64,000 bases of DNA from Pedobacter steynii (GTDB taxonomy: Bacteria; Bacteroidota; Bacteroidia; Sphingobacteriales; Sphingobacteriaceae): NCBI RefSeq assembly GCF_001721645.1, contig NZ_CP017141.1, positions 2,294,001-2,358,000 of the forward strand. The letters run 5' to 3'. Positions 20,695 through 36,999 of the stretch are shown one piece after another. Made by a program: the position numbers and the translations under genes. The notes under the pieces were generated by a model. That model was given only the letters and a program-made list of their open reading frames with translations. It made no database searches and had not been told where the DNA came from. The first letter of the stretch is position 1. The number at the start of each line of letters is the position of its first letter.

Positions 20695-21879
20695 ATGGCA
20701 AAAGACAATGAACGCTTCCGGGCAGAGAACCCCGATGAGATTGTATTTCTCCGGCTCAACAGACTCAAGAGCACGCGGCTTTGCGAGAACTTGTTGTGGG
20801 ATAAGCTTAATGATACGCCCAATCCTTCAATTACCGATGAAGTGATTGAAAAAAAAGCTATTGGTTTGGCTTCGGTCATTGAAAGTGCCCTAGGTTATTG
20901 GCAATCACCATCTCAATCGCTTAATTCAAAGATTCTGTCCAGATATTATTTCATGCTCCAACTCACCATCGCGGAACAGGTGGCGTGTGTCAGAAATACG
21001 GATGGACTGCGGGAGATACAAAAACATACAGAGAATGGTCATGGCTTAAAAACGTTTTGGATTCCTGACGGTAAATTACCTGATGATCTACTGATCTATG
21101 CGACTCAGGCGGGACATTTCAACTCCTATGGGAAATTCCTTGGTTGGGATATGAAAAAGTGCAGCCAAGATAAAGGGATCAGAAAACCAGCAGATATTAC
21201 TCCTGAAGTCAGAGCAAAAATGCTGAGCCTTTCCGAGCTATTCAGGACAATACCCGAATTAAGAACTGTAATCGAAGAATACTTGAATAAACCCCCTTTA
21301 TCGATTCACGTTGGACACTCCCAGTCAAATATGATCACCGACTCAAAATTTAACGAAGAATTTATTAAAACCAACCATCGGCTGCCTAGTTTAGAGGATT
21401 CGCGCAAAGGTGTAAAGACAACAGATGTTGGAATTTACTCTGAATCGCCGAACATAGACATTCCTTATCTTGAAACACTAGGGATGCCGCTGACTAATTT
21501 CAGGACTTACCGGGAGCTAGGGTCGAACAGCGATACGATAATAGGTTCTATATCGCATCCCGGAGAAACGATATGGTGGGACCTTTTCCCAACGTACTCC
21601 TCACGTTATGTTCCTGTCAGCTATGTTAAATCAATCTGGGGGGAAGGATATCATTCTGTGGCCGTCAATTACATGCTGCTTTACGCTCTGAGCATTGTAG
21701 TTCGTTACATGCCTGACATTTGGTACCGCATCACAAACGGTGAGGACAACCACATCGGATCACTTATTGACTACTACATTTCAGTAATGGACCACGTGCT
21801 TCCTCTTCAAATGCTGGAACACATCCAGGGAACAAAGCTAAGCATCCACAGTCAAGGAAGTTGGATGGGAGAAATCTAA
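20695..21879 (+). CDS. YaaC-like protein
   Basis: This 394-residue protein resembles the YaaC family of Bacillus and related proteins in defence islands. The clues are YYFMLQLTIAEQVA, then IQKHTENGHGLKTF with the HGHGL-like motif near residue 114, and SYVKSIWGEGYHSVAVNYMLLYALSI near the end. The family is all-helical and has no assigned enzymatic role. It stands just downstream of a 210-bp divergent region shared with the PD-(D/E)XK-like gene, and upstream of the ABC-3C operon. The ATG at 20695 is preceded by an AT-rich stretch with TAAGATAA but no strong promoter. Confidence 0.65.
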   Translation: MAKDNERFRAENPDEIVFLRLNRLKSTRLCENLLWDKLNDTPNPSITDEVIEKKAIGLASVIESALGYWQSPSQSLNSKILSRYYFMLQLTIAEQVACVRNTDGLREIQKHTENGHGLKTFWIPDGKLPDDLLIYATQAGHFNSYGKFLGWDMKKCSQDKGIRKPADITPEVRAKMLSLSELFRTIPELRTVIEEYLNKPPLSIHVGHSQSNMITDSKFNEEFIKTNHRLPSLEDSRKGVKTTDVGIYSESPNIDIPYLETLGMPLTNFRTYRELGSNSDTIIGSISHPGETIWWDLFPTYSSRYVPVSYVKSIWGEGYHSVAVNYMLLYALSIVVRYMPDIWYRITNGEDNHIGSLIDYYISVMDHVLPLQMLEHIQGTKLSIHSQGSWMGEI

Positions 21880-22396: not shown

Positions 22397-23497
22397 GTGG
22401 AGGATGTAATTGAAATCAAAAAGCCAGTCGGAATCGGAAAGCGATCAAACTATGACATCTTAACTGATCAGCCGGTTGTTGCCATCGACAAACTAAAAAC
22501 CGTAGGTGAGGATGAGTTCGAAGACATCGTCCGGGAATGGGTTTGGGGCTACCTGATCAAAAATAACCTTTCCGGATATATCGACTGTAAAAAATGTGCA
22601 GGCGCAGGTGACCTGGGAAGGGACATCATTGCTGTACTTTCGAAGGATGGTCCGAAATGGGATAACTACCAGTGCAAGCATTACGGGAGTAAAATCATGC
22701 CTTCCCAAATTTGGGGAGAAATAGGCAAGTTTCTTTATCATGCATTTAAAAAGCGCTTCACTATGCCGGAAACCTATTATTTCGTTTCTGGATTAGGTCC
22801 TGGGCCTGACCTCATCAATTACGTGGAGAATCCAGAGAAATTCAAAAGCGAATTGATCGCAAACTGGGACAAATACTGTTCAACAAAGATGATCAAGGGA
22901 CAGGCCATTCCATTGGATGCTGGACTCAAATCATATGTTGAGGCCATCGATTTTAAGCTCTTTGAGTTTATTGACCCGCAACAATTGATCGAAGAGCATG
23001 CAAAGACCCGATACCACTACTCCCGTTTCGGAGGCACTATGCCTGACAGGGTGTTTTCTGCAGGGGTACCGCCAGAAGTCAAGGACAATGAAATCACTTA
23101 TGTCAATGAACTTCTGGAGGCTTACACCGATCATAAACAATCCAGCATCACATTAGACAACATTAAGACGGACGGCACCTACGGCGCGCATTTTGACAGG
23201 CAGCGTCAGAGCTTTTACCTGGCAGATTCGTTAAATGAATTCTCTAAGGATGCTTTCCCGGAATATACCGACCATTTTGACAGCATTAAAACTGAGATAC
23301 ATTCTGGTGTAGTTGATGTATGTGAAAGCCCCCATCCCGACGGATATACCCGGGTAAAAATGGTTACCCAGGAAGCCAAGAAATTACAGTTGACCAGTAA
23401 CCCGCTGATCAAATTTATGAAGCTGGATGACCGTGAAGGTATTTGCCATCATCTGATCAGCGATAGAAAGTTAAGCTGGAAAGGGACCAAACCATGA
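22397..23497 (+). CDS. ABC-3C system effector, PD-(D/E)XK nuclease-like protein
   Basis: This 366-residue protein starts at GTG 22397. The N-terminal domain has a restriction-endonuclease core: an early helix with DEFEDIVREWVWGYL, GDLGRDI with D76, and YQCKHYG with Q92 and K94. The C-terminal part after about residue 200 (YSRFGGTMPDRV onward) fits the ABC-3C effector-associated C-terminal domain. It overlaps the next gene by 4 bp (ATGA) and is followed by the middle component and an SMC-like ATPase. In such systems the ATPase is thought to sense invading nucleic acid and release the nuclease. That role is known for the family from comparative genomics and is inferred here. Confidence 0.8.
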   Translation: MEDVIEIKKPVGIGKRSNYDILTDQPVVAIDKLKTVGEDEFEDIVREWVWGYLIKNNLSGYIDCKKCAGAGDLGRDIIAVLSKDGPKWDNYQCKHYGSKIMPSQIWGEIGKFLYHAFKKRFTMPETYYFVSGLGPGPDLINYVENPEKFKSELIANWDKYCSTKMIKGQAIPLDAGLKSYVEAIDFKLFEFIDPQQLIEEHAKTRYHYSRFGGTMPDRVFSAGVPPEVKDNEITYVNELLEAYTDHKQSSITLDNIKTDGTYGAHFDRQRQSFYLADSLNEFSKDAFPEYTDHFDSIKTEIHSGVVDVCESPHPDGYTRVKMVTQEAKKLQLTSNPLIKFMKLDDREGICHHLISDRKLSWKGTKP

Positions 23498-23979
23498 GTA
23501 AAATATATAGCTCCGATGTTGAAATCAGCCTGAGGCTGATGGCAATATTACAATATTACCCCGATTCTTCTGTCAGCATCGAAAGGCTGGTCGCCTACGA
23601 CTACCTGACCCTGCATGGCAATGATGTATTTCCGGAACTGGAAAGTCTTCATCCGAAATCGCCGAACAGTTCCAACGAATTCCTGATCAAAAGGGAATTG
23701 TTCAAAAGGGGACTTCATCTGTTGATCAGTAAAGAGCTGATCGGCGTAAACATCAGTAAAACAGGGATTAGTTACCAGGGCGGCCCGCTTACCGCTAAAT
23801 TTTGCAAAAAGCTCAACTCTGCCTATTCTGAAAAATTATACCAGGCAGTACGGTCTGTGATCAACACGTGCGCAGTTTATTCCGATCAGGAGCTGGAGGA
23901 CAGGATCAAAAGCAAGCTGTTGACACAGGACACTATCTTTAAAAATGAGTCGGTATTTTTAAATTACAGCAATGGATAA
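23494..23979 (+). CDS. ABC-3C system middle component
   Basis: This 161-residue protein overlaps the nuclease gene by 4 bp and the ATPase gene by 8 bp, so the three are translationally coupled. It is mostly helical, with a winged-helix feel in SIERLVAYDYLTLHG and RGLHLLISKELIGVNISKTGISYQG. Length and position match the middle component of ABC-three-component systems, which bridges the ATPase and the effector. Sequence conservation in this component is low, so the assignment rests largely on context. Confidence 0.75.
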   Translation: MSKIYSSDVEISLRLMAILQYYPDSSVSIERLVAYDYLTLHGNDVFPELESLHPKSPNSSNEFLIKRELFKRGLHLLISKELIGVNISKTGISYQGGPLTAKFCKKLNSAYSEKLYQAVRSVINTCAVYSDQELEDRIKSKLLTQDTIFKNESVFLNYSNG

Positions 23980-25813
23980 TCAGGGCTTTTATATTAAACA
24001 AATCAGCTACAAAGGTCCAATGGGATCGGACGCTACCTTGAATTTTGAGAAGGGGCTGAATATAGTCGCAGGTGCTTCGGATACCGGGAAGTCGTTCATT
24101 TTGGAAACTATTGATTACATGATGGGAGCCGGGAAACGCCTCGAAGGGCTCGATGAACTCGAAAAATTCGACACCCTGTACATGGAGATCAGGACTTTTG
24201 AATCCGATGTTGCCTATACGATAAAACGGGATTTGGAAGGGGGCCTATTTTACATCAAAATGGGCTCGATAACGCAAAATGGTGACGAAGTAAAATATGC
24301 CCCCAAATCGTCAAACACGAATGATCAAAACATTTCCTCGTTCCTGCTTGGCTTAATCGGTCTTAATTCCATCCAGCTGACCAGTTCGGATGCTACCAAG
24401 AAAACCCGAAAGCTCAGTTTTCGCGATGTGGCACATATTACGCTGATTAACGAGGTGAAAATGTTTACCAAAGATTCCCCGCTGCTCAGCGGAAATCCTA
24501 CGACAAAAACAGCTGAGAGGTCATTCTTTGAATACCTGATCTCCCAGACAGACAGCTCGCAAGTCATCAAGGTGGAGAAAGAGGAAATCCGCAAGACCAG
24601 GTTAAATGCACAGTTAGAATATGTTAAAGCAAGGCTAAAAGGAGATAGAGAACGCTTGGTGGCAGTCGAAAGTAGTCTGGAACATTCTCAATCCTTAAAC
24701 GTTGAAGATCTCGCTTCTATCAACGAGAAATATACCGCCTATTTTAGAGAACTGGAAGGAAATAAATTGGCCAAAAAAAAAGCAATTGATGAAAAGACAG
24801 AAATTGAGTCTGAACTATTGTACAATAAACAGTTGCTGGACAGGTTCAGTCTGCTGCTGAACCATTACGATGCAGATATGGAACGACTTGAATTCATTGA
24901 CGAAGGCAATAACCTGTTTAGCCTGCTCAAGTATGTAGCCTGCCCGGTATGCGGAACCGACATCGAAGAGCAGCATTATAAATGTATCCAGAATAGCGAA
25001 CTGCAGTCCGAGACGTTAAATGAAGCGATTGAAAGCGAATATCAGAAGATCCGTGAAAAGACATTGGATTTGAAACAGACGGTTCAGGAAATTGAAGGAA
25101 GGAACCGGGTTTATCAGAAAGATCTGGATACAACAAATGACCTCATTACTGACCTGGACCAGCGGATCGATCAGGAAATCATGCCAGTGATCTCAGGACT
25201 GAAAAGCAAGATCGAGTCGATTGTTGGACAGGAATTGCTGATCAAGGAAAAGGCGCGTTTGGAAGCGGATATAGATGCTCTGACAATCGATCAGAAAGAA
25301 CTGGAAGAAGAAAAAAAGAAAAAAAGGATAAAAGAAGCGACTGAACCCTTGAACCAAACCAGACTAGGAAAATTAGAAACAGAGGTGAAAGACCTGCTTC
25401 AAGCCTGGAAGTTTGACGATGTCAAAAATGTCATTTACGATCCGGCTAAATCAGATATCAAGATCGATGGAAAGAACAGAGGCAGCTATGGTAAAGGTTA
25501 CAGGGCTGTCGGCCATACTGCTTTTATCATCGGCCTGATGCAATTTCTAAGAAAAAATGACAGTAAATTCTCTAAACTACTTGTACTGGATTCTCCTCTT
25601 ACCGCCTACAAAAAGCAGGACCAGCCTCCATCTGATGAGCAGCAAATTACAAAGGAACTTGAAAGCGAATTTTTCAGAAGTCTGGTTGATATCTCAAAAT
25701 CCTGTCAGATCATTATCCTGGAAAACAAGGAACCACCTGCTGATGTGATCGCGAAATCGACTTACTTACATTTCTCGAAGAACAAAGAAATTGGAAGGGC
25801 TGGTCTTTTATAA
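23972..25813 (+). CDS. ABC-3C system SMC/Rad50-like ATPase (DUF3732-type)
   Basis: This is a 613-residue ABC-class ATPase of the SMC/Rad50 kind. Walker A is GASDTGKS (34-41). The middle 250 residues are coiled coil around a zinc-hook-like CPVCGTD (C324, C327), with another Cys in YKC a few residues later. The C-terminal lobe carries Walker B (LLVLDSPL, D540) and a late ILENKEPP. The length and C-terminus fit DUF3732. It is the third gene of the ABC-3C operon and probably senses DNA or chromosome-associated signals. A weak hairpin terminator follows at 25830. Confidence 0.87.
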   Translation: MDNQGFYIKQISYKGPMGSDATLNFEKGLNIVAGASDTGKSFILETIDYMMGAGKRLEGLDELEKFDTLYMEIRTFESDVAYTIKRDLEGGLFYIKMGSITQNGDEVKYAPKSSNTNDQNISSFLLGLIGLNSIQLTSSDATKKTRKLSFRDVAHITLINEVKMFTKDSPLLSGNPTTKTAERSFFEYLISQTDSSQVIKVEKEEIRKTRLNAQLEYVKARLKGDRERLVAVESSLEHSQSLNVEDLASINEKYTAYFRELEGNKLAKKKAIDEKTEIESELLYNKQLLDRFSLLLNHYDADMERLEFIDEGNNLFSLLKYVACPVCGTDIEEQHYKCIQNSELQSETLNEAIESEYQKIREKTLDLKQTVQEIEGRNRVYQKDLDTTNDLITDLDQRIDQEIMPVISGLKSKIESIVGQELLIKEKARLEADIDALTIDQKELEEEKKKKRIKEATEPLNQTRLGKLETEVKDLLQAWKFDDVKNVIYDPAKSDIKIDGKNRGSYGKGYRAVGHTAFIIGLMQFLRKNDSKFSKLLVLDSPLTAYKKQDQPPSDEQQITKELESEFFRSLVDISKSCQIIILENKEPPADVIAKSTYLHFSKNKEIGRAGLL

Positions 25814-25857: not shown

Positions 25858-26241
25858 TCAAACTACAATTGGTTCATGGCTTTTAGCCATTTTAACCCGT
25901 ATTCGCTCATTAGCAATTTCGATCAATAGGTTGTCCAATTCACGGTTGTTCATTTCGATGCCTTCGGAATTTAGATTTCCTTTTAACTGAAGGCATTTGA
26001 AAGCAAAGACAGCATACTCCTGGTCATATGGGACTATTTTGACCATTTTTTTAAATTCTGGTGAAGCTATACTATTAAATTGCCTCATGGCGTCCTTGGC
26101 TCTGGAGTCATAGATAAAGAAAAGTTCAGGATGATGGAAATGCAGGTATTTGGAGGCGAAAGACCGTTTCTTCAGATACCGATCTCCACTTTCCAGGCTG
26201 CCGATGATTTCCACCAGGTAACTGTGTATAGCCAGGGTCAT
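25858..26241 (-). CDS. C-terminal half of a split gene
   Basis: This 127-residue product carries RSFASKYLHFHHPELFFIYDSRAKDAM, which in related proteins lies in the C-terminal half of one longer chain of about 230-240 residues. Its ATG (26241) overlaps the stop of the upstream half as ATGA. The reading frame is also open upstream of that ATG (reading QTLDEPGIFE), which suggests a frameshift rather than an original start. Function unknown. It may be a pseudogene pair, or two coupled polypeptides. Confidence 0.55.
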   Translation of the reverse strand: MTLAIHSYLVEIIGSLESGDRYLKKRSFASKYLHFHHPELFFIYDSRAKDAMRQFNSIASPEFKKMVKIVPYDQEYAVFAFKCLQLKGNLNSEGIEMNNRELDNLLIEIANERIRVKMAKSHEPIVV

Positions 26242-26573
26242 CTCAAATATACCGGGCTCATCAAGCGTTTGCCATTGAGTACTTCCAATTTCCGGTCGAG
26301 TTCAGAATCCTGGAACAGCGGCACAATGGCATTGAAATAAAAGTCATCACCGGAATGCTGGTTTTTAACTTTGATCCGTTCCAGAGCAGCGGCATAGATC
26401 CTGCCGATCATCAACGCTTTGGCAACGATCTCCTGAGGATCGGTATGTTTAGGGTGATCTTTACATAGTTTGTACAAGATGTCGTTGCTGAGCTGCCAAT
26501 GGTTTTTTGTTTTGCACTTCATGAGTGCAGCCTCGAGTTGTTCGTCGGTCAGTTTGCTGAGTTTTTGCGTCAT
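26238..26573 (-). CDS. N-terminal half of a split gene
   Basis: The 111-residue product begins MTQKLSKLTDEQLEAAL and contains LSNDILYKLCKDHPKHTDP and ALMIGRIYAAALER, motifs I associate with the N-terminal half of an uncharacterised bacterial family. The frame leaves the family pattern near LEVLNG and ends ten residues later. The missing half follows in the -1/+1 frame. See the entry for 25858-26241. No role has been assigned to this family that I know of. Confidence 0.55.
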   Translation of the reverse strand: MTQKLSKLTDEQLEAALMKCKTKNHWQLSNDILYKLCKDHPKHTDPQEIVAKALMIGRIYAAALERIKVKNQHSGDDFYFNAIVPLFQDSELDRKLEVLNGKRLMSPVYLR

Positions 26574-26617: not shown

Positions 26618-27046
26618 ATGGCTGAATTTGATTTGAAGAAATTTTATACAAGCAAGCGGGAATATTTAAATCCAAGAACTGGTAAGCTGCGAAAAGGATT
26701 TGTCAGGATCAGTTTTCAGGAGTTTTCGGACTGGGTTGCTGCAGCTGGTTCACCGGAACGCTGTCATTATTGCGGAACTTCTTCCGGGCAATGTGCAAAG
26801 TTGTTTGAACTGCAGGATGGGGGAAACAGGTACCAGGCGACGCGCGGAGGTAGGCGTGGACGTCGGTTGGAACTGGACCGCAGGGATGCTTCAAAAGCAT
26901 ATGACGAGCTGGACAACCTGGTCTGGTGCTGTTACTGGTGCAACAATGCCAAATCCAATTTCTTTACCGAAGATGAGTTCATGCCGGTGGCAAAAGCGAT
27001 CGGTCAGGCTTTGAGCCTGATCTGTGAACAAGGGAACCCTAAGTGA
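26618..27046 (+). CDS. HNH endonuclease with Cys4 zinc site
   Basis: This 142-residue protein has a compact HNH fold. The first zinc knuckle is CHYC (C49, C52). The beta-hairpin motif is LELDRRD (84-90). The second knuckle is C105-YW-C108 followed by NNAKSNF with the HNH Asn. It is a single-domain DNA endonuclease of phage or defence type. An 88-bp gap separates it from the 955-residue nuclease-like gene on the same strand, so the two probably act together. It is divergent from the split gene at 26573. Confidence 0.88.
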   Translation: MAEFDLKKFYTSKREYLNPRTGKLRKGFVRISFQEFSDWVAAAGSPERCHYCGTSSGQCAKLFELQDGGNRYQATRGGRRGRRLELDRRDASKAYDELDNLVWCCYWCNNAKSNFFTEDEFMPVAKAIGQALSLICEQGNPK

Positions 27047-27134
27047 TTTGTTTTCATTCTTTCCCCTTGTCTTAGCTGACTCTTGGCATTTGAAGGAATT
27101 AAAACTTAAATTGGAGGCCTAAACCGGATAGAAT

Positions 27135-30002
27135 ATGGCCATTTTTTCAGCAGCATTTTTAAAGCAATATTTGAAGGATTTTGATGCTGGAAAAGTCGTA
27201 GACTTTTATGGGAGAAAAGAAGCATTGCGCCGCTGGATTGATTCCATAGAATCTGGCCGTATTGATGAAGAAAAGGAGATCGCCATCAAAAGCAGTTTTG
27301 TCAATGACTTCTTCGGGAAGGTTTTGGGCTATTCGTATGGGAATTCAAATAACTGGCTGCTGCAGCAGGAACAGAAGTCTTTCACCGATGGCAGCCGCTG
27401 TGACGCGGCGTTCGGGTATTTTGGAATGGAGGCTGGCAAGATCGGAGCCGATGTGAAAATGGTCGCAGAGTTTAAAGGGAGTACTGCCGATCTGGATGCG
27501 GTTCAAAAGGAACGTATCGTGAAAATATCTGCTGTTGACCAGGCTTTTTTGTATGCTGCCAAAACTCCGGGAAACTGTCATTGGGTCGTGGTCTGTAACG
27601 TCAGGGAGATCAGGTTTTACCATTACAGTTCGCAGGCTGTATTTCAGTCTTACCAATTGGCTGACCTGTTATCAGATGACCGGCTTTTGGAGATGATCTT
27701 TCTTTTTCAGGCCGAAAGTATTCTGACCCGGGATGGCTCGGCCAGAACAGACAAACTGTATGAGCTTTCCAAAAAGCAGGAGACTGCGGTTCAGATCAAT
27801 CCTACTGTCCATATTGTGGATGAACTTTATACGGTCATGAAAAAATTCGATGGACTGGCTTGCGTCGACCCCGTATACCTTGCGAACCTATACCCGTTTA
27901 ATGTGCTCGGTCAACGGGTCTGGCATTATGAGCGCGGTGTTCTGCATACCACTAATCCGGCGATATTTCAGCTGCTATCCGGTTTGGTGGTTCTGGAAGA
28001 GCAAGTAGTGCTTTCTAAAGCGCTCCAGCAGCAGCTTTCAGATGCACAGGTCATCGATCCTTTAAGAAAAGTTGAGTTTGTATTTAAAAGGCTGAACCAG
28101 GCTATTATCTATTACCTGACCGCAGTTGAAGACCTTGATCAGGTGCGAAAGAAAATGAAGGGCACGATCGGCTTCAGCCTGAACCATAGCACGGGCTATT
28201 CCAAAGATTACGGTATCATCAGGTCAATAAATGTGTCAAAAGAAGTTACCTGCGACTGTGTAAGCTGCCTGTACCGGGAGCTGGATTTTAAAGCGATAAT
28301 TAGCAAGCTTAATCATACCCCTGCGGAACAAAAAGACCTGGAATATGCTTTCGGGAAGTACTTGTTGGGTGTTTCCAGTAACAACGAAATGTATTTCGAG
28401 CTGGAAGCTTTGGAAACAAAATACAAAGGGCTCGACGCTCATATTGCGCAATACCTGATTGTTAAGATGAATCTGAAAAATACCGCGGGCAAATATTTCA
28501 CCGACGCCCGTCAGGGACCTGCCATTAAAAGCCGTTTGGATAACCTGGATTTGGATGCGGTTGTTGCTTATGAAGTTGACCTGTTTGCTGGTGCGGACCT
28601 GCGCAGGTACCTGGTGCAAATGAAGGACGGGGTGCTGATCGAACGGATCAGGCATGAAGTAACTTACAGTATGGAGCGGACAAAGGAGATTATGGAAATC
28701 AACCTGAGAGGAGATGTAATCCATGCTTTTGACCAGGTGAAATCTTTGGATACCTATCGATGGATGTTATACAGGTTTACCCAGGCGGATTATATAATGA
28801 CTGAGCATTTGTCAATTGTCCGTTCGATCTACAGTGAAATTTTCCAGGGGTATATTTATAGTTTTCTCACTCCTGGAGTTGGCATGGAAAGTTTTGATGA
28901 GCATATGCTCATTGACGCTGTTCTGCATGTCCCTTACACCACACTTGCTAAAATGCTGGAGAACATTCCGGAATTGAGGGTTGACGTTGACACGCGGAAG
29001 GTAATGCTGGGCAAAGTTTCTAAAATGCTGCGAAGTCATGTGAAAAAAGGCTTTGGCAAGGTATGGGAAGATCCGGATATGAAGGCATTGATGCTGGACT
29101 TCACAGCAGCGATGGCGCACTATGATGTGTTTGCTGCAGCTTTTCTCGTTGTAGGTAAGATGGGTTGTTCCGATGCAGACATCCGAGCAATTACCAGGGA
29201 TGTGCTTGATTTTTTAATTGCCGATCCTGATTATTACGATCAGCATATGGAAGGACTTGCGGCACTGATCGAAAAGCACTGCAATGCATTCACAGCGGCC
29301 GGATTTCTGGAGATATTGGAAGAAATTATCCCTAAGCTTAGCACCCATAACCATAAATACGATACGGTATATAACGGAATCTGCATCTCCTGGTGCAAAC
29401 ATTTTCCGGATGAAAAGATCAGCAATGAAAAACTGATCCGTCAGGCTGTGGTCAACCATATGGGGGGGAGTAATCCCGATTACCTTAGGCTGGCGAATTT
29501 GTGGTTTATCACTTCTCCGGATTTGCAGGGTTTGATCATTGCTGAGTTCGACCGGTTCCTGAGTGTAAATTTTAATGGATCTTTGTATGAGCGGTTACTG
29601 CACGACCAGTTGCTTCGGGTTGATCACAAAGACTTTTTTGCGGATTACGTCAAAAATCAGGTTGCGCACAATACGCCGGGCGGAAATTTTCATTCTGATG
29701 GGAAGGTGTTAATGAACCCATCGATCTATAACTTGGCGATAGTTGTCCACCGTTTTGATGTGCCTTTAGATCATCCTGCTTTTTTAGCTCTAAAGGGACT
29801 GAGCCCTTTTCAGAAATGGATGATTGATCCCTTGAATTTTGATTATGGTAATTTTGATGTTGCTTGGCTTAACCAGGCCACTAGTCCTGTGTTTCTAAAG
29901 AGGCTCAAAGGCAAGCAGGAAGTCATATCTGCAGTTGAGAAACTGCTCCAGAAGGATTATGATCCCAAGCTAGCCGAACGTTATTTCAAATACCTCGTAT
30001 AG
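27135..30002 (+). CDS. 955-aa protein with N-terminal restriction-endonuclease-like domain
   Basis: The N-terminal 200 residues resemble the nuclease domain of type IIG/MmeI-like restriction enzymes: EIAIKSSFVNDFFGKVLGY, D90 in RCDAAFG, E112-F-K114 in VAEFKGST, and WVVVCNVREIRFYHY. No methyltransferase motifs (no NPPY) are found downstream. A C-x-C-x2-C cluster lies at 373-378 (CDCVSC). The remaining 500 residues are helical, with repeats of long amphipathic helices. It may be the large subunit of an uncharacterised two-gene defence system with the HNH protein. The size, lack of methylase and helical tail make it unlike classical restriction enzymes. Confidence 0.7.
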   Translation: MAIFSAAFLKQYLKDFDAGKVVDFYGRKEALRRWIDSIESGRIDEEKEIAIKSSFVNDFFGKVLGYSYGNSNNWLLQQEQKSFTDGSRCDAAFGYFGMEAGKIGADVKMVAEFKGSTADLDAVQKERIVKISAVDQAFLYAAKTPGNCHWVVVCNVREIRFYHYSSQAVFQSYQLADLLSDDRLLEMIFLFQAESILTRDGSARTDKLYELSKKQETAVQINPTVHIVDELYTVMKKFDGLACVDPVYLANLYPFNVLGQRVWHYERGVLHTTNPAIFQLLSGLVVLEEQVVLSKALQQQLSDAQVIDPLRKVEFVFKRLNQAIIYYLTAVEDLDQVRKKMKGTIGFSLNHSTGYSKDYGIIRSINVSKEVTCDCVSCLYRELDFKAIISKLNHTPAEQKDLEYAFGKYLLGVSSNNEMYFELEALETKYKGLDAHIAQYLIVKMNLKNTAGKYFTDARQGPAIKSRLDNLDLDAVVAYEVDLFAGADLRRYLVQMKDGVLIERIRHEVTYSMERTKEIMEINLRGDVIHAFDQVKSLDTYRWMLYRFTQADYIMTEHLSIVRSIYSEIFQGYIYSFLTPGVGMESFDEHMLIDAVLHVPYTTLAKMLENIPELRVDVDTRKVMLGKVSKMLRSHVKKGFGKVWEDPDMKALMLDFTAAMAHYDVFAAAFLVVGKMGCSDADIRAITRDVLDFLIADPDYYDQHMEGLAALIEKHCNAFTAAGFLEILEEIIPKLSTHNHKYDTVYNGICISWCKHFPDEKISNEKLIRQAVVNHMGGSNPDYLRLANLWFITSPDLQGLIIAEFDRFLSVNFNGSLYERLLHDQLLRVDHKDFFADYVKNQVAHNTPGGNFHSDGKVLMNPSIYNLAIVVHRFDVPLDHPAFLALKGLSPFQKWMIDPLNFDYGNFDVAWLNQATSPVFLKRLKGKQEVISAVEKLLQKDYDPKLAERYFKYLV

Positions 30003-30079
30003 GTCAGTGCTAAAAAGCGCTGACCATTTAGTGTCATAACATCCGGTATCACTTTGGATTTGTAGAGTTGAGCGGCGAT

Positions 30080-31154: not shown

Positions 31155-32159
31155 TTATAGAATTTCGTTGTTCCTAAAAAACAATAGTGCTTCATCCGGA
31201 GATTGTTTCTCTTCAAAAAGCACATTTTCCTCTTCTATTACAAGAGTAGTAGTTGGATTATTGGAGTCGACATTAATGAGATCAAGTGAATAGATGGATT
31301 TTTTACTGGGTGAAAGCATAGCTCCAAAGGTTATCATGATTTTAAGTTCATCAGTATTCGGAATGATAATGTGATAGGTTACCGCGTGCGGTATGCCATA
31401 ATGAAGTGGATTGGAGATTGGCCGATGAATGAGTTGAGCTCCTTGCAGAATTACGCTTACCTGATCTCCAAACGCATTTGCCTCCCAACCTAAGAATTTA
31501 GCTCCGCCAACTAATGTAATGGTGTAGTTGTAGTTGGAATCGTTTTGAAGCTTTGAAAAATTAAAGATTACAAAGGCAAGTTTGCATAAAGTCTGACCAC
31601 CATGTTCAAAGAAAGCATTTAAACGCAATGTCGCTCTTAGATCAGGATAGGAGATCTGCCTCATTAAAGCCTGAACGATATAATGGGGTGCGGGTCTTGT
31701 TTGCCCATCCATCCTGATGTAATATATGTGATCCACTTGATGAGGCTTATATTGACTTTCCTGGACCTCGAAGACATAAACAAAGGAATTTCCTGACGGC
31801 AATATTTTTACTGCAATACCAATTGGCATAGGCGAAATCGAGGTGCAACATTTATTTATAAACCAATCCACCGATTTTTGTACAGATACAGGTGTAAGCA
31901 CACCATTAAAAAAATCCACGTTCCCCACCGTTTGTTTGACAGGGGCACCCAATATAAGCAAACCACCAGATCCGTTCAAAAATCCGCAAATGGTTTTCAT
32001 GATTTTTACCAGTATAGCATCAAAATTTGCCTGAGGTGGAAATGACTTAAATTCAAGCGTGTCAGTTTCAAGTCTTTGTTCCTGAAAATAGTTCTCTAAT
32101 AAGCCGGAATTCAGTTCTTCTAGAGTAACACCAAATAAGTTTTGAGCGAAGTTCGTCAT
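31155..32159 (-). CDS. AlbA_2 / Schlafen-type domain protein
   Basis: This protein has 334 residues from the ATG at 32159, preferred over an ATG at 32207 because the added 16 residues look unrelated. The first 190 residues match the AlbA_2 (Schlafen AlbA) domain: TDTLEFKSFPP near the start, ICGFLNGSGGLLILGA, and YIRMDGQTRPAPHY. In bacteria this domain is linked to nucleic-acid binding or RNase activity and is common in defence islands. The C-terminal 140 residues are beta-rich without a known family. It is divergent from the AbiV gene, with 81 bp between starts, so the two may share control. Confidence 0.8.
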   Translation of the reverse strand: MTNFAQNLFGVTLEELNSGLLENYFQEQRLETDTLEFKSFPPQANFDAILVKIMKTICGFLNGSGGLLILGAPVKQTVGNVDFFNGVLTPVSVQKSVDWFINKCCTSISPMPIGIAVKILPSGNSFVYVFEVQESQYKPHQVDHIYYIRMDGQTRPAPHYIVQALMRQISYPDLRATLRLNAFFEHGGQTLCKLAFVIFNFSKLQNDSNYNYTITLVGGAKFLGWEANAFGDQVSVILQGAQLIHRPISNPLHYGIPHAVTYHIIIPNTDELKIMITFGAMLSPSKKSIYSLDLINVDSNNPTTTLVIEEENVLFEEKQSPDEALLFFRNNEIL

Positions 32160-32240
32160 ATTCGAAGTTAAATAATAAATTTCCGATTTTGGTGCCTGAA
32201 CATACACATATCATTGTGATTATTTATACTTATAAATTAC

Positions 32241-32984
32241 ATGGAATTTGCAACCCCACTTCCTTTAGAAAACCAGTACAATAGTGTCGTAACGTGTGCA
32301 GAGGCTGCTGAAGGTATACACGTGTCGCTCTTAAATGCTAAAGAACTTTTAGCTGATGGCCAGATTCTGTTTGACAATGCGCGTTATCCAAGGGCGATTG
32401 CGCTAGCTGTTTTAGCTATTGAGGAGTACGGAAAAGTCGAGAAGATCAAAGAACTGCTACTCAGCAAACAAAAAGTGTCCTCTGCATGGCGGGAAGTCAG
32501 AAGTCATAAATCAAAGAACTACCCGTGGCTTTTTCCATTGTTAAAACAGCTTGGGCTTAATGACAAGGATGCGCTACTAGCTTTGACTGCCAAGGAAAAT
32601 AATAGCCTTAAATTTCTTGACCAACTAAAGCAAATTTGTTTTTATACCGAGGCAATAAAAAAAGAAGATAAAAAAGGTTGCTATTGGTGGCTGCCCTCTG
32701 AAATCACAGATGCAGATCTGGCTAGGTTTTATTTGTCAAATGCTGACATCATTGTAAATGACGATGGTATTATGTGGACTGAAGGTGCTTTGTCTGTGTA
32801 TATCCAGCACAATTATTTACAGGATGGTAAATGCTTTACGAAAGATCAAGTATTATATTATCAAGCGTTGCGCGACGGAAAACACATCACTGAAGACCGC
32901 TTTACACGGATAATCGAAAATGTGAAAAGAATGCAGCCGCCAACGAACAATGTCAGTGAGGGTTCAGATAATAAAACATTATAG
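32241..32984 (+). CDS. AbiV-family abortive infection protein
   Basis: This 247-residue protein has the AbiV hallmark: a helix with LLNAKELLADGQILFDNARYPRAIALAVLAIEEYGK near the N-terminus (A-x-x-L-x-x-D-x-x-x-L, then AIEEYGK), followed by mixed helices. The lactococcal AbiV protein acts against phage by binding a phage early protein and blocking translation; that is known for the family founder, not for this member. The gene is divergent from the AlbA_2 gene, and the copy D module follows after 25 bp. Confidence 0.85.
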   Translation: MEFATPLPLENQYNSVVTCAEAAEGIHVSLLNAKELLADGQILFDNARYPRAIALAVLAIEEYGKVEKIKELLLSKQKVSSAWREVRSHKSKNYPWLFPLLKQLGLNDKDALLALTAKENNSLKFLDQLKQICFYTEAIKKEDKKGCYWWLPSEITDADLARFYLSNADIIVNDDGIMWTEGALSVYIQHNYLQDGKCFTKDQVLYYQALRDGKHITEDRFTRIIENVKRMQPPTNNVSEGSDNKTL

Positions 32985-35800: not shown

Positions 35801-36009
35801 AATATATCCACTGCCGGTCATGCTGGATAACAGGACTATCAAAATCGAAGAACCACAGGAACATGCTTTCCAAAAAACTGATTTACAACTGTAACCATGA
35901 ATGTTTGAAATCATTCACGAAAAAATGAAGAAAAAAATGCAACTGCGCAAATAGATTGCACAGTTTGAATCTATATTCGTTTAATCAATCAACAAACAAG
36001 CTTATCGAT

Positions 36010-36999
36010 ATGGAAACCAAAAGAGAAACAATTTTTTCACGCGCACTTTCAGCGGGAGATAAAGTTCAATTAAAAGAACTCTCCTCTGCCCTAGACTGTA
36101 CAGTGGATTTAGGGGTAGCACTGCTTGAAGCTGATTTTGCAACGGGTGGGAATGAATTGGATTTGCCACCAATACTATTTCTCAAAAATCTAATAAGCAA
36201 TATCGATGGCATTTCGGTTTTAGTTGAAAACTCCATCATGGAACCTTGTAATGTGCTGCTAAGGACTTTGCTGGAAAATTTCTTTTCACTGGAATATCTG
36301 CTTGAAGATAAGGCCGGTTCAGGACAGCGTTCAAGGGATTTTATGGTTTGGGATTTTGTGGAGCGGCGCAAGTGGGTTAAAAAAGGAGATGTAAATAGTC
36401 CAGAACATGGACGGTTGGCCAAAAAATTTAAACAGGACAAACGACTTTACGATAGCCCCGTGATGTCCTTTCCTATGGCGGATAAGATCTGCGAGCGTAT
36501 AGATAAGGGTTTGAACGGAGAAACCTACCGGGAGACTTGGTTGGAGTATGAAAGGACGAGGAAAATAAAAAGGAAAACCCCTGCATGGTATAGCTTATCA
36601 AATGGTCCTGGCTCACTTGAAGAACTTGCAGCCAAAGTCGGTTATCCTGCCCTTTATGAAATATTGTACCGAGGTTTTTCGTCTTCCAGCCACGGGAACA
36701 ATATTGTCCCGGGCAAAATTTCTTTTCCGGACGGTCCGCAGGTCAACCTTGAACCCTTACGTGACAAAACGCTTGCGGCCTCAACAGTGAACCATTGCCT
36801 GCAGATCAGCAATTTGGCATTCCGAACCTACCTGAAGAAACGTGTACCTTTTATGGAGAAGAATTATGAAGAATGGGTGGCTTATGCGTATCCCTACAGC
36901 ACGCAGCTGAACAATGAAGTGAGGGAGATGGTAAAAAAAGATGATCAATGGCTTTTGGATAAAATGGAGTTAAATAAGCGTCCTCCGATAATTATGTAG
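36010..36999 (+). CDS. DUF5677-like protein
   Basis: This protein has 329 residues from the ATG at 36010; a TTG 54 bp upstream is possible but less likely. The central helix pair (LLRTLLENFFSLEYLLEDK, then DFVERRKWVKKGD) and the later GFSSSSHGNNI fit DUF5677, an uncharacterised helical family often near mobile elements and defence genes. HEPN-like structure has been suggested for similar proteins, but no R-x4-6-H RNase motif is plain here. It follows the MITE/IS remnant and is alone on its strand up to the XRE gene. Confidence 0.6.
   Translation: METKRETIFSRALSAGDKVQLKELSSALDCTVDLGVALLEADFATGGNELDLPPILFLKNLISNIDGISVLVENSIMEPCNVLLRTLLENFFSLEYLLEDKAGSGQRSRDFMVWDFVERRKWVKKGDVNSPEHGRLAKKFKQDKRLYDSPVMSFPMADKICERIDKGLNGETYRETWLEYERTRKIKRKTPAWYSLSNGPGSLEELAAKVGYPALYEILYRGFSSSSHGNNIVPGKISFPDGPQVNLEPLRDKTLAASTVNHCLQISNLAFRTYLKKRVPFMEKNYEEWVAYAYPYSTQLNNEVREMVKKDDQWLLDKMELNKRPPIIM

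Follow-up and report, generated by a model that had tools for sequence, protein, structure and literature searches.

DSR2, the defence-associated sirtuin 2 of Bacillus subtilis 29R, is described in excerpts from the reports on it (PMC10981675, PMC11263360, PMC11087589, PMC10973363) as an anti-phage NADase. According to three of these excerpts, it is switched on by a phage tail tube protein, which the C-terminal helices sense as a monomer and the C-terminal part binds even on its own, and the signal passes via a middle domain to SIR2 within a tetramer (PMC10981675, PMC11087589, PMC10973363). DSAD1 acts as an inhibitor of DSR2. Here we analyse a 64,000-nucleotide (nt) stretch of the Pedobacter steynii genome (NCBI RefSeq assembly GCF_001721645.1, contig NZ_CP017141.1, positions 2,294,001 to 2,358,000 of the forward strand; hereafter the window), in which one gene encodes a protein of 955 amino acids (aa). 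We put at about 0.62 the probability that this protein is a DSR2-type, phage-triggered anti-phage receptor encoded by a single gene, with an MmeI-type PD-(D/E)XK nuclease in place of the SIR2 NADase. An earlier note on this DNA had suggested that the gene and an HNH-like open reading frame (ORF) upstream could form an undescribed two-nuclease system; a nuclease effector coupled to a DSR2-type sensor is the better reading and replaces that one, and the note's broader suggestion of a plausible undescribed defence protein is supported.

Front and body of the 955-aa protein

Both ORFs lie where the earlier note had placed them (142 and 955 aa, Table 1), as do D90, E112, K114 and the C373-x-C375-x2-C378 cluster, and the large gene occurs once in the genome (a single contig of 6.58 Mb). 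By homology, residues ~1-225 are predicted to be an MmeI-type restriction nuclease domain of PD-(D/E)XK fold, which bears out the description of the N-terminus as restriction-like with an intact motif. Because D90, E112 and K114 are invariant in all ten N-terminal domains of the MmeI type (alignment A9) and CxCxxC is conserved in 25 of the 26 family genes described below, both motifs are more than chance. Nine of the ten MmeI-type N-termini match MmeI_N (Pfam, E ≤ 0.1, best 2.5e-8) and seven match HSDR_N (best 5.9e-7); the N-terminus of the window protein reaches E 5.8e-4 against MmeI_N, below the curated cut-off. A Pfam scan of the full protein that admitted E-values up to 1 returned MmeI_N (E 0.0087) and DUF6756 (E 0.013) and nothing else, both below cut-off, with no SIR2 match and no methyltransferase or target-recognition domain, in keeping with the earlier claim that a methylase is missing.

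The front matches that of MmeI-type restriction-modification enzymes. By tblastn, the 955-aa protein matched 37 plasmid records, one of them with a query coverage of at least 80%; among the 20 matches listed, 19 fall wholly within query residues 1-260, and 17 of those 19 front-only records carry a methylase- or restriction-type annotation. Four phage records match as well, solely within residues 1-232, and hhalign aligned the N-terminal profile with a 1109-aa protein that has the same front at E 1.5e-38. The likeness to MmeI-type (type IIL/IIG) enzymes thus lies, by sequence, in an N-terminal nuclease domain with D...ExK, whereas the N6-adenine methyltransferase and target-recognition domains that Pfam finds in L045:6628-9843 were not found in the window protein.

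Residues ~226-955 are, judging from profiles and a predicted structure, homologous to the helical sensor of DSR2 (DSR2 residues about 304-1005). The earlier note was right that a long helical part stands here in place of a methyltransferase; it overlooked the probable identity of that part as a DSR2-type sensor. A profile of this region (A8, 21 rows) compared with 177,635 sequences of the Protein Data Bank (PDB) gave seven hits below E 0.3, all of them DSR2 (3.8e-10 to 5.8e-10). Most of the score is owed to a segment that aligns with DSR2 924-1001 and holds the FDYxxFxxxW signature (present in 24 of 26 family genes); a second stretch (DSR2 about 420-614) is colinear and not significant on its own. 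In a Foldseek search with a model of a relative, L096, DSR2 chains took ranks 1-47 (E 6.3e-10 to 6.6e-5), and the next hit was a proteasome chain (E 1.1e-3). VIA-align placed residues ~346-912 of the same model onto DSR2 ~420-1005; the alignments cover 426-518 residues at Z 9.4-11.4 and a root-mean-square deviation (rmsd) of 6.7-8.2.

We also compared profile A8 with a DSR2-like SIR2 protein from a Priestia plasmid, which shares 46% identity with DSR2 across 78 residues. The hhalign E-value was 1.2e-8; among 59 unrelated long ORFs (non-family ORFs from the family loci, a few near-copies among them) the best score was 0.016, and among 60 shuffles it was 0.063. The MmeI-type clade alone reached E 3e-5 (controls 0.016 for ORFs and 0.055 for shuffles), and the link to DSR2 is therefore independent of the members with a DUF4365 front. 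Among the family members scanned, Pfam, NCBIfam and PADLOC gave no accepted match over the sensor region. The window protein has no PADLOC or NCBIfam match; the PADLOC Dsr2 model, which also misses the DSR2-like Priestia protein (E ≤ 0.001), has matches in 5 of 84 relatives and none in the window genome.

Like DSR2, the window protein is one long chain with an effector first and a homologous helical body after it, and both carry FDYxxFxxxW near the C-terminus. It differs in having an MmeI-type nuclease in place of the SIR2 NADase, as well as an added CxCxxC. Given the missing SIR2 NADase, we therefore say that it may work like DSR2, not that it is a DSR2.

Several results weigh against this reading. 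Identity to DSR2 is about 12-13% (Foldseek), the Foldseek TM-scores between L096 and DSR2 are low (0.30-0.40) and the rmsd is large. The structural match runs through the L096 model, which is itself of moderate quality (mean predicted local distance difference test score, pLDDT, 59.7), and not through the window protein, whose own model (pLDDT 43) was unusable and set aside. In VIA-align, the unrelated importin RanBP5 reached Z 11.7 (rmsd 16) and other helical-repeat proteins ~10, so that score is not discriminating by itself. HMMER misses the Priestia protein with default filters and finds it at E 1.1e-4 with filters off, and CxCxxC was not seen in that protein. A SIR2 protein that PADLOC calls Dsr2, encoded beside the family member at L072, shows no detectable sensor relation (E 0.37). 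For the front, searching the PDB with a profile of the MmeI-type N-termini returned nothing at E up to 1, and the PD-(D/E)XK fold is thus assigned through homology to MmeI-type enzymes, without a structure match.

One body behind several fronts

Homolog searches were run on genomes of Bacteroidota and on plasmids, phages and viral contigs. Scans with the window protein as lone query found no relative in the genome-contig or viral-contig collections, and alignments A2 and A3 found none among the viral contigs. Used as a query against genomes, the window protein gave matches in 20 of 296 genomes of the phylum and 13 of 198 relatives, confined to the front in 16 of the 20 and 6 of the 13; these front-only genomes were taken to hold restriction enzymes, with a Pfam check made on L045:6628-9843 only. 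Profiles of the C-terminal region matched 5/395 phylum, 9/145 genus, 15/300 order and 7/345 class genomes, sets that overlap and in which four matching genomes hold fragments only. Together with the Hymenobacter plasmid, these matches yield a family of 26 genes. The counts leave out the front-only genomes, fragmentary sensor matches (G088, G716, G743, G931 and G248), L077/L099 with an in-frame TGA, L096, L097 and L098 (the same genes as L076, L078 and L074) and L101, a near-copy of L100.

The same C-terminal region stands behind different fronts. Ten of the 26 genes have the MmeI-type front, and L039, which would make an eleventh, shows none. Seven have a DUF4365 front, recognised by Pfam in L096, L100 and L080, by profile comparison in L112 (E 3.6e-17, no Pfam match) and by similarity to L076 in L074, L075 and L078. 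A PIN front occurs in four, through PIN_12 (Pfam) in L044, L073 and L079 and through profile comparison in L043 (E 2.6e-24, no Pfam match). One gene, L113, has a SIR2 front (SIR2_2, E 3.8e-25), and L114 consists of the sensor only. The remaining two (L038:2117-4747 and L045:3314-6022) have an uncertain restriction-like front, seen by eye only, with a D...QxK pattern that we take to be Mrr-like; neither Pfam, nor the PDB, nor comparison with the LmuA protein of the window lends it support.

In a tree of the sensor region, the MmeI type forms a single clade (100/100) that adjoins the SIR2 protein L113 and L114 (100/99). L039, labelled MmeI there despite its missing front, is placed as sister to the window protein. 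DUF4365 and PIN fronts each call for two or more changes along starred branches, forced by L079 and L080. Long branches are flagged for L079, L080, L114, L038:2117 and the Priestia row, and the placement of those rows and the number of effector exchanges are therefore unsure.

Some loci combine these elements. At L038:2117-7692, two family members stand in tandem 44 nt apart, the first with the uncertain restriction-like front and the second with an MmeI-type front, and at L072:7948-14647 an MmeI-type member adjoins (overlaps, by first-start ORFs) the 1261-aa SIR2 gene called Dsr2 by PADLOC. Genome G979 holds both the SIR2-bearing L113:6584-10111 and, elsewhere, the frontless L114:8436-11800, whose sensor follows a 355-aa gene with a sub-threshold EAD11 match (E 6.9e-4), possibly a two-gene form. 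Near one MmeI-type member, an 807-aa gene (L110:11391-13814) matches PADLOC LeoBC at E 1.1e-18 and has a front that looks DUF4365-like by eye.

Two described systems share features with this arrangement. The DREN nuclease of SPARDA is described, in an excerpt of the report, as inactive while monomeric and active once tetrameric, with catalytic residues D41, Q60 and K62 (PMC12205087). The DUF4365 fronts of the family follow that pattern, with D62...Q82xK84 kept in six of six, and VIA-align superposes the DUF4365 front of the L096 model onto the SPARDA nuclease at Z 13.0, which suggests the same kind of nuclease. The same excerpt reports one sensing module with SIR2, DREN, Mrr or HNH effectors; SPARDA differs in sensing through an Argonaute/APAZ pair and a guide RNA (PMC12205087), and no such Argonaute/APAZ was found in the family genes scanned. 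Avs/AVAST systems likewise place an exchangeable nuclease or SIR2 effector before a repeat-type sensor of phage proteins (see PMC12931631), whereas the 20 of 26 family genes that were scanned with Pfam yielded no STAND NTPase domain.

With one C-terminal region behind differing effectors, these genes therefore look like a swappable branch of the DSR2 alarm family. At somewhat short of even odds, we would go further and tentatively propose that Bacteroidota have an NTPase-less, effector-swapping receptor family, in which a DSR2-type body of ~700 residues senses phage structural proteins behind SIR2, MmeI-type, DREN (DUF4365) or PIN fronts, the window protein representing the MmeI branch.

Proposed mechanism and alternatives

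For the trigger, the oligomer, the activity and the abortive infection, we infer the following by analogy. In the resting cell, the helical body would keep the nuclease off, probably within an oligomer. Upon infection, it would bind a newly made phage protein, for which the tail tube protein is a first guess from DSR2, and the resulting change in shape would release or gather the nuclease domains and activate them. Their cleavage of DNA, with little regard to sequence, would abort the infection. Self DNA would be spared through the off state, not through marking, and no methylase would be needed for that reason. The window protein would thus probably be an abortive-infection switch, and the HNH gene would have no part in it.

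One alternative is a derived restriction enzyme similar to type IIL that acts directly on incoming DNA: its helical part would bind DNA, and an unlinked methylase or the recognition of a modified base, as in type IV, would protect self DNA. The front is indeed that of MmeI-type enzymes, and NCBI annotates the relative from a Hymenobacter tibetensis plasmid (L002:9992-12889; full-length tblastn match, 30.8%) as the type IIL restriction-modification enzyme MmeI, even though we detected no methylase domain there. Against this stand the missing methylase and specificity domains of the 955-aa protein, the kinship of its back with DSR2, and the recurrence of that back with PIN and SIR2 fronts, which does not fit a DNA-recognition domain; we consider the explanation unlikely.

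Alternatively, a sensor with a nuclease could answer to something other than phage, such as a cellular or plasmid signal, or serve as a suicide switch in general. The sequence does not reveal the trigger and identity to DSR2 is low, but family members sit among defence genes (in neighbourhoods picked by hand) and DSR2 itself senses a phage protein, as an excerpt of its report states (PMC10981675). A phage trigger is preferred, and we regard this alternative as quite improbable.

Joint action of the HNH protein and the 955-aa protein finds its argument in the arrangement of the two ORFs, on the same strand with a gap of 88 nt. The HNH label itself comes from a weak match to PacI (E 8.8e-4), a sub-threshold Pfam HNH match (E 0.14) and a cysteine/LELDR/N...C motif common to the homologs, which form a small family in varied settings (8 of 148 genomes, that of the window included). 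When a profile of the gene and six homologs was run against 25 loci of the large protein's family (446,196 bases, 1,478 ORFs of at least 50 aa), nothing reached its inclusion threshold. The best match there (E 0.023) is an HNH-like gene 4.4 kb off, in L071, and a looser pattern picked up three further HNH-like ORFs, spread over two of the 25 loci and more than 4 kb away. Conversely, the other seven HNH genomes, all taken to lie within the 198 relatives, are not among the 13 with a match to the large protein. With 0 of 25 loci holding a relative and no genome besides that of the window shared, co-occurrence, the criterion by which the earlier note itself would have the pairing refuted, speaks against it, and we rejected the pairing as very improbable; the HNH gene is judged to be an independent neighbour on account of the 25 loci without a relative.

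Equally hard to credit is a decaying gene without function. In its favour, the closest relative, L039 (52% over residues 341-954), shows no N-terminal part in the 803 bases that remain before its contig ends, a frame change divides L042, and an in-frame TGA interrupts L077. The window gene, however, reads open over its full length and keeps its catalytic motif intact.

Genomic setting and significance

The window region is a defence island. Directly upstream lies a complete-looking Lamassu operon (22397-25813; LmuA with CTD6, LmuC with MC2, and LmuB; PADLOC and Pfam), and downstream are a Schlafen AlbA_2 gene (31155-32207) and an AbiV gene (32241-32984; both Pfam). A YaaC-like gene (20695-21879) and a DUF5677 gene (35956-36999) are also found in the window. 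Between the Lamassu operon and the HNH gene, two small overlapping genes of 127 and 111 aa occupy the minus strand (25858-26573), without an accepted family match in Pfam, PADLOC or NCBIfam. Elsewhere in the family, seven of nine hand-picked neighbours match a defence model (E ≤ 0.001), a selection that precludes reading the count as enrichment.

Features of the gene and its surroundings are given in Table 1. Hairpin-type sites in the region are at chance level (5 found versus a mean of 4.7 in shuffles), as are promoter sites in a pattern scan, and the Bacteroidetes-type promoter pattern does not occur between the HNH gene and the large gene.

Table 1 Positions of the 955-aa gene, its parts and adjacent features in the window
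Feature	Position	Strand	Basis
955-aa gene: MmeI-type nuclease domain and DSR2-type sensor (predicted)	27135..30002	+	ORF; family of 26 genes
N-terminal nuclease domain (predicted), residues 1-225	27135..27809	+	tblastn, MmeI_N in relatives, alignment A9
D90, predicted catalytic residue	27402..27404	+	invariant in 10/10
E112-x-K114, predicted catalytic residues	27468..27476	+	invariant in 10/10
C-terminal helical sensor (predicted), residues 226-955	27810..29999	+	profile A8, L096 model, hhalign with controls
CxCxxC, residues 373-378, possible metal site	28251..28268	+	25/26 family genes
FDYxxFxxxW signature, residues 902-911	29838..29867	+	24/26 family genes; aligns with DSR2 FDYKKFIPSW
HNH-like gene, judged an unrelated neighbour	26618..27046	+	no relative in 25 family loci
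Hairpin, 10 pairs, possible terminator	30002..30025	+	after the stop codon, pattern scan

Among the top-ranked open-access literature, we found no description of a DSR2-type sensor with a nuclease, and no open-access paper was found on DSR2 together with DUF4365. The window protein looks like an undescribed, nuclease-armed branch of the DSR2 family. DSR2 has been characterised as a SIR2 NADase; should its sensor module also drive restriction-type, DREN and PIN nucleases, it would belong to a receptor family. Unannotated Bacteroidota proteins of ~880-980 residues in defence islands (one of them annotated MmeI) would then gain a function, and whether the sensing of a phage tail protein is separable from the killing domain would become directly testable. 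In the MmeI-type branch, a restriction nuclease would have moved from the recognition of DNA sequence to control by the sensing of a phage protein.

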